A stretch of 64,000 bases of DNA from Psychrobacillus sp. FSL K6-2836 (GTDB taxonomy: Bacteria; Bacillota; Bacilli; Bacillales_A; Planococcaceae): contig NZ_JBBOOM010000001.1 in NCBI RefSeq assembly GCF_038003085.1, positions 3,906,001 through 3,970,000 on the forward strand, written 5' to 3'. The position numbers and the translations under genes are program-made. Shown here one piece after another: positions 13,935 through 61,170 of the stretch; position 1 is the stretch's first letter, and every line of letters begins with the position of its first letter. The notes below the pieces were generated by a model. The model had not been told where the DNA came from. It worked only from the letters and a program-made list of their open reading frames with translations, and made no database searches.

Positions 13935-14200
13935 AAAACAAACCTATGACCGAAAAAGTAACTGTCTAAAACGGATGACAAGAGAAGGAAAGACGTGGCT
14001 GAAATCTTTCCTACATACGCATTCAGTGAACAACATTCGCGAGGATTTTTGTCGAAAGAGATTTTACTCTAGTAGGCAAAAACGGAACTGGTCGTTATCC
14101 AGAATTGAGAGGGTCAATATTTTTGACCAACTAGGGTGGAACCGCGGAAGCTTATACAAGCTCTCGTCCCTTGCTATTTATAGCAGGGGATGAGGGCTTT
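13935..14200 (+). ncRNA. T-box leader of hisS-aspS
   Basis: A typical T-box riboswitch. Stem I is closed by GACAA (13978) and TTGTC. The specifier region reads GTGAACAACATTCGCGAG near 14025-14042. The T-box AGGGTGGAACCGCGG starts near 14133 and is followed by a terminator (GCTCTCGTCCCTTGC...GCAGGGGATGAGGGC, then T) ending about 14204. By comparison with GAA-A-GGC-A in the B. subtilis glyQS leader and GAA-A-GCT-A in the alaS leader of this window, the specifier would be AAC (Asn). The bulge is TGGA. Uncharged tRNA binding should allow read-through into hisS and aspS. T-box identity is sure; the specifier is an inference. Confidence 0.93.
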
Positions 14201-14327: not shown

Positions 14328-14355
14328 TATAATGCAATGGAAAGGGGCAATTGCC

Positions 14356-17516: not shown

Positions 17517-17760
17517 AGATTTCCGTTACAGGTGGAGAACAAAGGCTAAAAGCGCCACGTCGTGTGGCAACGCCTTCGTGACCAACATCCTGTTGGCCTC
17601 CGCGGGCTTGGCTTCAGCCTCCTCGTCGCTGTGAAAACATATGCTCTTGCGGTTACTCGTCGCAAAGACATTGGTCAAACAAAGTTCGAGCAATGTCTTT
17701 CCTGTGGGGGCATCAGCTCAAGCTATTCCGCTGGAGTCGCCACCTTTCACTACAATCAAT
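17517..17760. repeat. Family B repeat, long form
   Basis: Read on the minus strand it begins ATTGATTGTAGTGAAAGGTG, then GCGACTCCAGCGGAATAGC, and ends CACCTGTAACGGAAATC, which are family B ends. Between them is a long insert with small hairpins: CCAACATCCTGTTGG at 17582-17596, GCCACGTCGTGTGGC at 17554-17568, and a larger stem around CATATG. It lies between aspS and the YqhV-like gene. With the oppositely oriented copy at 17931 it fills most of a 760-base gene-free stretch. The AT-rich 17761-17930 between them shows nothing else that I recognise. Confidence 0.75.
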
Positions 17761-20621: not shown

Positions 20622-20854
20622 ACACGAATCCTGATGTGTTCGCAATTTGCCAATCAGTTTTGACCGAACAATTCTATCGTTGGGAGTCTAACTTTTATTA
20701 TGAATGACATGCCTTTAATCGGGACGCCAAGATTAATAAAGAGGACACCCACCTGCTTCTTGCGGGTTCAAAACGATACGCTTTATTTGTCGGCACGATT
20801 GGGATTCGTATCATTTCTTAAATATCCTCTGGCGAATTTGCTAGAGGTTTTTTA
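20622..20854 (+). ncRNA. ssrS: 6S RNA (6S-1 type)
   Basis: The segment starts near ATCCTGATGTGTTCGC and contains GGGAGTCTAACTTTTATTAT and GGGACGCC, as in Bacillus 6S-1 RNA (bsrA), which also begins with a TCCTGATGTGTT stretch followed by GGAGTCTAACT. A complex central region with GGACACCCACCTGCTTCTTG-type hairpin follows. It ends in CCTCTGGCGAATTTGCTAGAGG plus six T, a clean terminator at 20826-20852. 6S RNA mimics an open promoter and holds sigma-A RNA polymerase in stationary phase. The position between aspS and tcdA matches that of bsrA in B. subtilis. The 5' end is inferred from the promoter. Confidence 0.88.
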
Positions 20855-20860
20855 TTGGGA

Positions 20861-21131
20861 TTTAATCCCGTTTTAACGGGCAGGCCGATTAAAGTCGCCA
20901 CGTCCTGTGGCAACATTGGCACTTGTACGTCCTGTACGTCGTAAAACTTCCATTTATTACTTGGTTCAAGTAACAAAGCGAATTGCGAGTTCAACTGCCC
21001 GTAAAACCCGAATGGTTCGGGCCAACACGATGTTGGTTACTCAGGCATTGCCGCACGACGAGGCGTTATTTGCCAGAGTTCAATTTTTCAATCAGTGGGA
21101 TAAGGCACCCCACTGATTGAAGTATCACCTT
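20861..21131. repeat. Family C repeat, long form with extra hairpins
   Basis: The left end TTTAATCCCGTTTTAACGGG and the right part CTGCCCGTAAAACCCGAATGG, then CAATCAGTGGG...CCCACTGATTGAAGT are family C landmarks. Two extra blocks of small hairpins are present: 20895-20945 (GCCACGTCCTGTGGC, GTACGTCCTGTAC) and 21018-21080 (CCAACACGATGTTGG, GCCGCACGACGAGGC). The second block is also in the copy at 60957 and, inverted, in family B long forms. The repeat ends about 25 bases before the tcdA ribosome-binding site and directly follows the 6S RNA terminator. Confidence 0.75.
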
Positions 21132-21992: not shown

Positions 21993-22187
21993 ATGACTGA
22001 AACAAATAACCAAGAAGCACCTAAAAAGAAAATGACACTCCAAGAAGCTGTTAAGCAAAAGCTTGAAGAGAAAAAGAATCAATCTGCTGGTGGTAAAGCT
22101 TCCCTTAACGGATCAACAGGAAGTCAAAAAATGAAAAGCCAACAAACTAAAAAGGTCAGTAACACCAGACGTAAGATGGGTGTATAA
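21993..22187 (+). CDS. Small basic protein of unknown function
   Basis: Protein of 64 residues with an excellent AAGGAGGGGAAT ribosome-binding site before ATG 21993. It is lysine-rich and probably helical at first (KKKMTLQEAVKQKLEEKK), then has a Gly/Ser/Asn-rich linker and a basic tail ending SNTRRKMGV. No membrane segment or known domain is seen and I do not recognise a family. Its last 14 codons and stop are repeated four more times immediately downstream, in a 102-bp tandem array, always in the same frame. The basic tail suggests nucleic-acid or ribosome contact, but that is a guess. Confidence 0.75.
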   Translation: MTETNNQEAPKKKMTLQEAVKQKLEEKKNQSAGGKASLNGSTGSQKMKSQQTKKVSNTRRKMGV

Positions 22188-22595
22188 TTGTTACCTTCTT
22201 TTAGAAAAGTAAATTTAAGTTCTGCGACGAGCTTTGCGCAGGAGCAAACTAAAAAAGTTAGTAACACCAGACGTAAGATGGGTGTATAATTGTCACCTTC
22301 TTTTAGAAAAGTAAATTTAAGTTCTGCGACGAGCTTTGCGCAGGAGCAAACTAAAAAAGTTAGTAACACCAGACGTAAGATGGGTGTATAATTGTCACCT
22401 TCTTTTAGAAAAGTAAATTTTTGTCCTGCGACGAGCTTTGCGCAGGAGCAAACAAAAAAGGTTAGTAACACCAGACGTAAGATGGGTGTATAATTGTCAC
22501 CTTCTTTTAGAAAAGTAAATTTATGTTCTGCGACGAGCTTTGCGCAGGAGCAAACAAAAAAGGCCAGTAACACAAGACGTAAAATGGGTGTTTAA
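22188..22595 (+). repeat. 102-bp tandem array repeating the gene's 3' end
   Basis: Four units follow the small gene. Stop codons fall at 22185, 22287, 22389, 22491 and 22593, exactly 102 bases (34 codons) apart. Each unit has a 54-base spacer (TTGTCACCTTCTTTTAGAAA, then GTAAATTTAAGTTCTGCGACG, then AGCTTTGCGCAGGAG; shown in pieces) and then the last codons of the gene, QTKKVSNTRRKMGV plus stop. Because 102 is a multiple of three, all units are in the gene's frame and each is open from stop to stop, beginning with TAATTG. Units 1-2 are nearly identical; the last differs most (GGCCAGTAACACAAGACG), and a terminator follows it, so it may be the original gene end. Confidence 0.9.
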
Positions 22596-22603
22596 AACCT
22601 CGA

Positions 22604-22635
22604 AAATCCAGTCCTTACAAGGACTGGATTTTTGT
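22604..22635 (+). terminator. Terminator after the 102-bp array
   Basis: AAATCCAGTCC and GGACTGGATTT pair around TTACAA, then TTGTTTTC. It ends the tcdA-small gene-array transcript. Confidence 0.8.
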
Positions 22636-22811
22636 TTTCTTATAGATAAAAAAAGTACCATCATATGCACTGAACTATGTTGTCTAATATGCAGGATTGA
22701 CTAAAGAAACTAACCATTGCAGTCCACTTAGTGAAATAGAAGTATTAATTATTATATTTTACAAATTTAGGATGTGAATTAATAAAGTATTTTGGGAAAA
22801 CTATCCGTTTT

Positions 22812-22936
22812 GCAAGTAAGAGATAGTCGACCGCAAGTAAATATAGACTTAGTGCAAGAAATCCTTTACTACCGCAAGTAAGCAGCAGATGGAAGCAAGT
22901 AAACAATAAATGAGAGCAAGTAAAGGTAAAATAGAA
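22812..22936. repeat. Phased GCAAGTAA array (21-bp spacing)
   Basis: The octamer GCAAGTAA (once GCAAGAAA) begins at 22812, 22833, 22854, 22874, 22895 and 22916, so the steps are 21, 21, 20, 21 and 21 bp. Only the octamer is conserved; the 12-13 bases between copies differ. The spacing is two helical turns, so all copies face the same side of the DNA. It lies in the gap between two converging genes. The 22636-22811 stretch before it shows nothing that I recognise. Confidence 0.8.
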
Positions 22937-30424: not shown

Positions 30425-30663
30425 CATATAGTAAAATGTTGACGGAGAAAGTACTAATTGTTATCTGACTAGAGATGAATTCCTTGGCTGAAAGAATTCA
30501 CTGAACTAACATATAGGAAAGCTACTCCTGAGTACAGTTAAAACCTGTCGTTCGGCCGCGTTAAGGCTTCTTGAGAGACATAGTAGGAAAATCTGCTATG
30601 TAACTAGGGTGGTACCGCGAAACAACAGCTTTCGTCCCTTTTTTAGGGATGAGGGCTTTTTTT
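30425..30663 (+). ncRNA. T-box leader of alaS (Ala specifier GCT)
   Basis: Stem I spans about 30460-30550 with the specifier region GGAAAGCTACTCCTGAG near 30516; the specifier is GCT (Ala), matching the downstream gene. The T-box AGGGTGGTACCGCG starts near 30606. Its TGGT bulge suits an A discriminator base, as in tRNA-Ala. The terminator TCGTCCCTTTTTTAGGGATG, then AGGGC and T-run, ends near 30663. From 30664 to the alaS ribosome-binding site there are about 170 bases with only a weak inverted repeat (ATTACTCG at 30707, CGAGTAAT near 30780). Confidence 0.95.
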
Positions 30664-43776: not shown

Positions 43777-43987
43777 GTCTAGCTCCAGCGCCTAGCCCTT
43801 CGAGTCGCTTCAGAATTTTGGGGCCGCACCATGCGGATCAGTCATTCGTTGTAACACGATGTCACGAATTTAGACAAACTTACTATGCAAAAGACGCCTT
43901 TACGTGAAATTCTTCCATCGCTTGCTCCTCTGCAAAGCTCGTCGCAGAAGAACGTTGTCAGGGCTAACATAGGCGCTAGCGCATTTC
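43777..43987. repeat. Family A repeat, long form
   Basis: Starts CAGTCTAGCTCCAGCGCCTA then GCCCTTCGAGTCGCTTCAG and ends GTCAGGGCTAACATAGGCGC then TAGCGC, family A ends as at 14207. The inside is longer than in other copies and includes GCTCCTCTGCAAAGCTCGTC then GCAGAAGAAC (43924-43953). The reverse complement of the TTCTGCGACGAGCTTTGC part recurs in each unit of the 102-bp array at 22.2 kb. It lies between sigK and pssA. A weak hairpin AAAAGCG...CGCTTTT at 43708-43738 may end the pssA transcript. Confidence 0.75.
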
Positions 43988-60957: not shown

Positions 60958-61170
60958 TATCCCGCATTATCGGGCAGTATGACTTCCACCTAAAGACTTG
61001 GCAGATGCAACAAAGTGAAGTGGGAGGTCAAATGCTCGTAAAAGCCCGAATGGTTCGGGCCAACAGGATGTTGGTCACTCAGGCATTGCCGTACGACGCG
61101 GCGTTACTTGCATGAGTTCAGTTTTTCAATCAATGGGGAAGATAACCCCACTGATTGAAGTTTCACTTTA
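60957..61170. repeat. Family C repeat, long form, upstream of hemW
   Basis: TTTATCCCGCATTATCGGGC, stem TGACTTCCAC...GTGGGAGGTCA, TGCTCGTAAAAGCCCGAATG, then an extra hairpin module 61056-61118 (GGCCAACAGGATGTTGGTCA, GCCGTACGACGCGGC), then CAATCAATGGGG...CCCCACTGATTG and AAGTTTCACTTTAT. The right end lies 10 bases before the hemW ribosome-binding site, so the repeat is the hemW 5' leader. Confidence 0.8.

Follow-up and report, generated by a model that had tools for sequence, protein, structure and literature searches.

Small dispersed hairpin repeats, tandem clusters of such repeats and variable target duplications are known, as far as the available passages of the relevant papers go (PMC3116915, PMC2229807, PMC2884548). 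Repeats of the REP/REPIN-RAYT type are small palindromic hairpins, dispersed and mostly intergenic, whose tandem clusters may include flanking sequence (excerpts of PMC3116915), and for one TnpA-REP cleavage at a CA located 3' of the hairpin is described (excerpts of PMC8266576). The MITE-like YPAL/RU-2 elements are non-coding, dispersed and inserted, with variable target duplications of 3–26 bp (excerpts of PMC2229807), while the cyanobacterial small dispersed repeats of ~20 bp are tandem and possibly mobile (Elhai et al. 2008, in the form in which it is cited elsewhere). These systems resemble M, a 25-bp hairpin (CTGCGACGAGCTTTGCGCAGGAGCA) that ends each spacer of a tandem array and stands directly before the next copied gene tail in the 64,000-nucleotide stretch of Psychrobacillus sp. 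FSL K6-2836 DNA analysed here (the window). M is an imperfect palindrome within the 20–50 nt of REP sequences and able to form a hairpin, with a CTGCG/CGCAG stem, variants that fold at −5.6 to −9.8 kcal/mol and a fixed 3' end, GGAGCA. It differs from REP sequences in that the flanks read carry no GTAG/CGTC-type tetranucleotide at the hairpin foot; by reading, the 5' flanks vary (TTCT, TTTT, TATA, GTTA, TTAT) and the fixed side is the 3' GAGCA. M is also distinct from YPAL/RU-2 in its length of 25 bp, in having no element-spanning terminal inverted repeats and in repeats that reach about 75 bp over the gene end. Where MITEs display terminal inverted repeats and a constant short target duplication, the stem of M is internal only and the apparent target duplications vary in size, the smallest being about 3 bp (by reading) and the largest about 75 bp. 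Like a minisatellite or VNTR, the array consists of head-to-tail units and varies in copy number between species, but here unrelated genes share one seed, M, and one arrangement. We know of no gene-end duplication among the cyanobacterial small dispersed repeats. The available passages of the REP/REPIN literature do not mention gene-end duplication, in contrast to what is seen at M loci, and a search of literature outside the subscription journals, available in part, found no published description of M or of M-linked gene-end duplication. The unusual part, in comparison with known small repeats, is the recurrent duplication of gene ends.

The array follows a 64-aa gene (an ORF reading MTETNNQ...KKVSNTRRKMGV*, 21993–22187, forward strand like all features of the array) within a 4.23-Mb contig. 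This gene has no Pfam or NCBIfam match at E 0.001; counting the own genome, 26 of 41 genomes have a match to it, and the 19 genus genomes are all in this number. Its own tail, T1, counted after CCAACA, is 43 nt long with the stop (22145–22187). Behind it lie a 34-bp spacer 1 (22188–22221), M copy 1 (22222–22246) and T2 (22247–22289), then spacer 2 (22290–22323), M copy 2 (22324–22348) and T3 (22349–22391), spacer 3 (22392–22425), M copy 3 (22426–22450) and T4 (22451–22493), and finally spacer 4 (22494–22527), M copy 4 (22528–22552) and T5 (22553–22595), each tail copy including a stop. T5 (GTGTTTAA) is joined to the gene's terminator, by reading a rho-independent one at 22604–22633 (AATCCAGTCC-TTACAA-GGACTGGATTTTT). 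A sequence-only reading had described the gene tail followed by four further copies with stops 102 bp apart, and the sequence confirms this array: the stops end at 22187, 22289, 22391, 22493 and 22595, and TRF gives a row at 22143–22595 with period 102, 4.4 copies, 95% matches and 0% indels. The 54-bp spacer that it gave also holds; together with a tail of 48 bp it makes a unit divisible by 3, and in the own genome the frame stays open between successive stops. The TAATTG reported for each junction is present at stops one to four, the fifth stop reading TAAAAC, and the protein-level conservation of the most diverged, fifth tail (KKASNTRRKMGV) is partial: the GTA/GTT and AAG/AAA differences are silent, but a V to A change (GCC) means that the tail is not purely synonymous. 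T5 is probably the original 3' end of the gene, because it is joined to the terminator and ends like several array-less relatives, in which similar terminators are read behind the stop; the single tail of G004, G006, G008 and G014 ends GTGTTTAA and that of G007 ends GTGTCTAA. The first four tails would therefore belong to inserted units. Across the genus the gene carries the array in 1 of 19 genomes, one extra tail in another, a truncated extra tail in a third (G003, where M and ~15 nt of tail precede the terminator; score 14, judged by eye) and none in the remaining 16. The array is not a product of chance, since M at ≤3 mismatches occurs five times in the window (four in the array) against 0.00 expected in shuffles, and none of the 57 window ORFs of ≥90 aa, a cut below which the 64-aa gene itself falls, has a downstream copy of its own tail. 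Compared with Rfam, the array reaches the gathering score of no family. Genomes of other species contain arrays of this kind as well.

M is widely dispersed. With the 603-bp array as query, at least 41 places in the own genome are found among the matches listed (40 of 67 candidates scored), and these, the array itself aside, lie nearly all over the M piece; in the same scored set, matches of spacer 1 elsewhere cover only its M-proximal end. The 24-nt core of M at ≤3 mismatches has 45 sites in the own genome (22 forward and 23 reverse; reversed control 0). Seventeen of the 19 genus genomes contain M, with 0 to 113 per genome at ≤1 mismatch, and variants M' occur in 11 of the 19. Exact matches in public species genomes, a set from which records very near the window were possibly left out, comprise 51 stretches, all from Psychrobacillus or one 'Bacillus sp. 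FJAT-22090'. Of 151 genomes drawn from across the family, M at ≤2 mismatches is present in 21, which include 15 of the 17 of the genus (own included), five of genus g7 and one with a single hit. Nothing points to a virus-borne M, the 24-nt core having no exact match in viral_contigs. In 11 sources picked because they bear M, six of nine Bacillaceae-1 RNA matches have 1–7 apical-loop positions replaced by 35–47 nt that comprise M and a T-rich leader; these matches are elements interrupted by M. Among five M-bearing loci compared with Rfam at E ≤1, only Bacillaceae-1 stands above cut-off. Where the empty version is readable, M follows GCA or ACA (GCCGCA, GGGGCA, CCACCACA, GTTGCA; by reading), the empty version of L050-type inserts being ambiguous. 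Several loci contain short M arrays of about 33–43 bp. In genus g7 (e.g. L336, L378) M occupies a fixed place in a structured intergenic repeat of ~130 nt, preceded by a variable hairpin, and L336, L339 and L378 show nothing above the Rfam gathering score. None of the 62 distinct M sites read outside the genus (61 of g7's 76 and one of G063) has a gene-tail duplication. At L331 (G115) a g7-type structured M element forms an 87-bp tandem duplication ending in M.

The window holds further repeats and structured RNAs. At 43923–43947 (reverse strand) M with two mismatches lies in a family-A-like element without tail duplication, the A/B family labels coming from a loose pattern that was not used for counts. 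Three head-to-tail copies of a 121-bp intergenic element (AAGCGCC...CCCGACA...GCGCTGAAACTAGACAG) span 187–549, and by reading M-bearing versions of what appears to be the same family occur elsewhere in the genome. Degenerate repeats of the GCAAGTAA type extend over 22801–22930 (TRF row 22874–22924, period 21), and similar words are present near M in L180. Five Bacillaceae-1 RNA (RF01690) elements, none interrupted by M, are located at 17530–17596, 20873–20938, 21022–21088, 43823–43889 and 61060–61126; two of these elements lie 83 bp apart in opposite orientation just upstream of a ThiF-family gene. A 6S RNA (RF00013) is found at 20625–20809 and two T-box leaders at 13937–14174 and 30430–30642, the first upstream of an ORF at 14332 that presumably encodes a histidyl-tRNA synthetase.

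Six unrelated genes share the arrangement, namely the 64-aa gene, a thioredoxin, an agmatinase, rpoB, an ABC transporter and a DUF2804 gene. The common order is gene, T1, stop, spacer, M, T2 and stop, usually followed by the native terminator, with M 9–46 bp beyond the stop and T2 consisting of the gene's last 4–18 codons and stop. The earlier suggestion that the spacer might also stand behind other genes, followed by a copy of each gene's 3' end, holds behind five others for M, the last 25 bp of the spacer, and not for the spacer as a whole. The agmatinase is named by TIGR01230 (above cut-off), the thioredoxin by Pfam Thioredoxin, the ABC transporter by ABC_membrane and ABC_tran, the DUF2804 gene (340 aa) by DUF2804, and the rpoB fragment by Rpb2 domains 6 and 7 together with TIGR02013, for which the fragment is below the whole-protein cut-off. 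Eight M units of ~95 bp lie behind the thioredoxin-family gene of the own genome (C1:3522000-3526000, minus strand), each M unit succeeded by a tail-like copy, of which the last is the gene's exact 31-nt end joined to the terminator. A scan of 238 distinct M sites for direct repeats beginning 0–2 nt behind M's 3' end (score ≥36, ≥20 bp) retained the same six genes plus L146, a repeat of a whole intergenic element; in null comparisons 99% of the scores of M flanks against other loci were ≤35 and shuffles reached at most 30. What is repeated upstream of M in the gene cases of the scan is an ORF's 3' end with its stop, the ORF and M sharing a strand; the tail repeat measures 22 bp at the DUF2804 gene and 34 bp, exact, at rpoB. 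Away from genes, where many M sites are copies of a few elements, no long duplication starts at M except at L146. The extent of the repeat differs between genes. At the ABC locus it includes the entire spacer (75 bp), and at the thioredoxin loci L129 and L150 the likeness continues about 10–20 nt past the stop. In rpoB of G010 the tails are identical, the likeness stops one nt past the stop and the 45-nt spacer is unlike the flank behind T2; the spacer of the 64-aa gene similarly has no visible resemblance to the flank. In the agmatinase of G001 and G012 the last tail is followed again by spacer and M-like sequence.

The prevalence of the arrangement was established by an orthologue survey of four genes (64-aa, thioredoxin, agmatinase and rpoB, the ABC and DUF2804 genes being outside it) in 19 genomes, scoring a downstream copy of the last 48 nt and taking as duplicated a score ≥30, a cut set after the scores had been seen. 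Duplication is found in 21 of the 76 gene-genome pairs (agmatinase 8, thioredoxin 9, rpoB 2, 64-aa gene 2), and all other pairs score ≤26. By reading, M, a variant or a degenerate M lies between the tails in all 21, the variant being of CTGCGGAGCTGAACGAAGTGAAGCGGAAGC type in the agmatinase of G001, G012 and G018 and the degenerate M belonging to rpoB of G009. With two cases judged by eye, the 64-aa gene of G003 and the thioredoxin of G014 (degenerate tail copy, score 17), 18 of the 19 genomes have at least one case, G003 resting on the by-eye judgement, and G002 has none. As a control, four of 400 ORFs of ≥90 aa in 8-kb loci chosen because they bear M have a downstream tail copy; M lies between in three, and the fourth was judged to be a spurious ORF inside a repeat. 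The proposal of a copy-number-variable 3' module is upheld between species, with 0 to 8 extra tails when different genes are counted.

The junctions are alike at several of these genes. T2 begins 0–2 nt after M's GGAGCA, and in front of T1 a site like GGAGCA is clear at three genes (agmatinase, on average 5.5 of 6 matches in 8 genomes; thioredoxin, 4.8 in 10; DUF2804 gene of L074, 6), weak at two (rpoB, 4; 64-aa gene, 3.3 in 3 genomes) and missing at the ABC gene of L115, whose hexamer ACTACA matches at 2 of 6 positions (by hand). The hexamer ends in CA at all six genes. With junction positions set by hand from alignments and the ABC gene (L115) entered as 0, the summed junction score is 23.6 against a mean of 9.0 at random positions, a value reached in 0 of 200,000 draws; singly, the rpoB and 64-aa gene junctions are not striking, 0.064 and 0.096 of positions scoring as high. 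GAGCA is present before T1 in 14 of 18 duplicated and 5 of 20 unduplicated agmatinase and thioredoxin genes (Fisher p 0.003, a value that ignores kinship). At five genes, each measured in one genome, the unit lengths are 102, 102, 103, 94 and 99 bp (101 bp at the thioredoxin of G011), and at the sixth gene the unit has 50 bp. In the same order, T comprises 58, 43, 33, 31 and 28 nt and the spacer 19, 34, 45, 38 and 46 nt. These lengths compensate at the five genes (3 of 120 pairings as even), a constancy that is lost when the sixth gene is included (342 of 720 pairings).

We interpret the array as one instance of M-linked gene-end duplication, in which M inserted near gene 3' ends with target duplication and arrays formed by slippage; this reading is tentative, with a probability of roughly 0.45. 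It draws on the recurrence of the arrangement in the survey and on the ORF control, on the junction likeness and the GAGCA before duplicated tails, on the lengths that offset each other at five genes, on the M inserts in Bacillaceae-1 RNAs and on repeats that take in the ABC spacer or pass the thioredoxin stop at L129 and L150. DNA synthesis, or an insertion reaction, would pass through the gene end and part of the 3' flank, pick up M from a genomic copy by template switch and resume at a GGAGCA-like site back inside the gene. M would thereby be inserted and some 75 bp of target duplicated (25 bp at the sixth gene). Such an insertion would be tolerated because the upstream copy would retain the complete coding sequence, and insertions that interrupt a gene and leave its end unrestored would disappear. 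Between the flanking tails, slippage or unequal recombination would then be possible, with traceless loss or amplification as the outcome, and alleles may also pass between species; amplified cases in the own genome are the four M units at the 64-aa gene and the eight at the thioredoxin. The extra tails leave the gene product unchanged. An element that copies gene ends, as the sequence-only reading put it, fits as a description, while how the copying happens is what we infer in these steps. No enzyme or intermediate for M insertion was found. Several observations weigh against target duplication. It would predict a likeness between spacer and flank, which the spacers of rpoB in G010 and of the 64-aa gene lack. 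Moreover, a variable target duplication should have left more traces, since M sites away from genes are, apart from L146, without long duplications. The unremarkable junctions of rpoB and the 64-aa gene, the unmatched hexamer of the ABC gene, the unit length of the sixth gene and the mostly silent tail differences described below count against it too.

Plain microhomology-mediated tandem duplication, the main rival, is rather unlikely in our judgement. M would have come first, in the 3' flank like any intergenic repeat, slippage or illegitimate recombination between its GGAGCA and the GGAGCA-like gene site would have duplicated tail, spacer and M together, and the last spacer and M would later have been lost via recombination with array-less alleles. 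This requires no new enzymology and agrees with the microhomology at the junction, with the short M arrays, with rpoB and 64-aa gene spacers unlike the flank behind T2 and with arrays that end in spacer and M or an M-like remnant (agmatinase of G001 and G012, ABC transporter of L115); the remnant after the last agmatinase tail is better explained by it than by target duplication. In most surveyed loci, however, an apparent native terminator stands directly after the last tail, as in array-less relatives, and plain duplication therefore needs a separate, repeated loss, while the offset of spacer and tail lengths at five genes also argues against it. The sequences of the tails themselves bear on two other accounts. 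Between T1 and the last counted tail (copies of ≥50% amino-acid identity within 330 nt, leaving outside the thioredoxin of G014, the agmatinase of G018, which is cut by the contig end, rpoB of G009 and the window's fifth tail) the agmatinase has pS 0.61 and pN 0.055 in 7 genomes (pN/pS 0.09), the 64-aa gene pS 0.66 and pN 0 in 2 (pN/pS 0) and the thioredoxin pS 0.37 and pN 0.08 in 9 (pN/pS 0.22). Since an untranslated T2 should drift, mostly silent differences call for tail exchange between species or for function. A function of the extra tails, whether through translation (by bypass, read-through or re-initiation) or as RNA, is highly improbable even though pN/pS is low and the frame is kept in the own genome. 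The frame is not kept elsewhere, because many stop-to-stop distances (95, 97, 98, 101, 103, 104, 107, also 96, 102, 108) are not multiples of 3, and the 34-bp spacer of the 64-aa gene is unlike among G000, G003 and G015, the three genomes with M there. Among the thioredoxin T2 copies, that of G006 stops prematurely, that of G007 shows no in-frame stop in the stretch read, and those of G004, G005 and G016 stop one codon late; T2 is truncated or decayed in G003 (64-aa gene) and G014 (thioredoxin), and 55 of the 76 surveyed pairs have no extra tail. The repeated peptide by read-through or re-initiation suggested earlier is rejected on these grounds of frame, stops and spacer. RNA structure as the reason for the unit was rejected as well, a 136-nt stretch with one unit folding no better than shuffles (z 0.04).

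The least demanding account of the silent differences is an exchange of alleles between species, both tails having worked until recently. A sliding-window breakpoint search of the agmatinase, in which rows with values of ~28–45 are mis-registered because gene lengths differ and were ignored, is suggestive, G010 and the G005/G016 pair pointing to exchange and the average not. The agmatinase of G010 has a clade II body and a T1 nearest clade I, with 5 differences to G004 and 11 to the nearest array-less clade II gene, and its T2 has 9 differences to G005 and 10 to G004. Between G005 and G016 the 54-nt tails show 11 differences, where other windows show ≤5, and the T1 stop is TAG in 8 of 8 duplicated agmatinases, with TAA in 7 of 11 others. 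These observations agree with a further possibility, that T1, spacer and M form a ~100-bp cassette which is inserted directly behind GAGCA into the homologue in a different strain or species, through short-tract homologous recombination or a HUH-type hairpin transposase, so that the resident tail is pushed downstream and becomes T2. The almost exclusively silent differences at the agmatinase and the 64-aa gene, as if both tails had recently been working, would follow as well, and the Marinomonas TnpA-REP cuts at a CA 3' of the hairpin (excerpts of PMC8266576). It is nevertheless doubtful that such an exchange is how T2 arose, and equally improbable that units cut and joined after CA form a system that swaps working gene ends among homologous genes across species. 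Tails of only 54 nt give a weak phylogenetic signal, and over 19 close pairs the last 18 codons average 0.41, inside the range of other windows (maximum 0.43). The 603-bp query, with 40 of 67 candidates scored, finds no tail separated from its gene anywhere in the own genome. Y1_Tnp is present in 18 of 19 genomes, and its count does not track that of M (rho 0.03, p 0.90); none of the 6 Y1 transposase loci read has M (strict pattern) closer than about 1.5 kb, and G002 has M and no Y1 match.

Insertion of M with target duplication is the reading we retain at the grade given above. A minimal dispersed hairpin is tied to repeated duplication of gene 3' ends, including that of rpoB, in 18 of 19 genomes, where occupied loci can be set beside empty ones. 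It can now be tested how very small dispersed repeats insert, and whether target duplication shelters genes from insertions at their 3' ends. For annotation, ORFs should not be called across such arrays. If tails are truly exchanged, this would provide a route for gene ends to evolve apart from gene bodies, and if whole cassettes of tail, spacer and M are what moves, the 3' ends of genes would turn over independently of their bodies.
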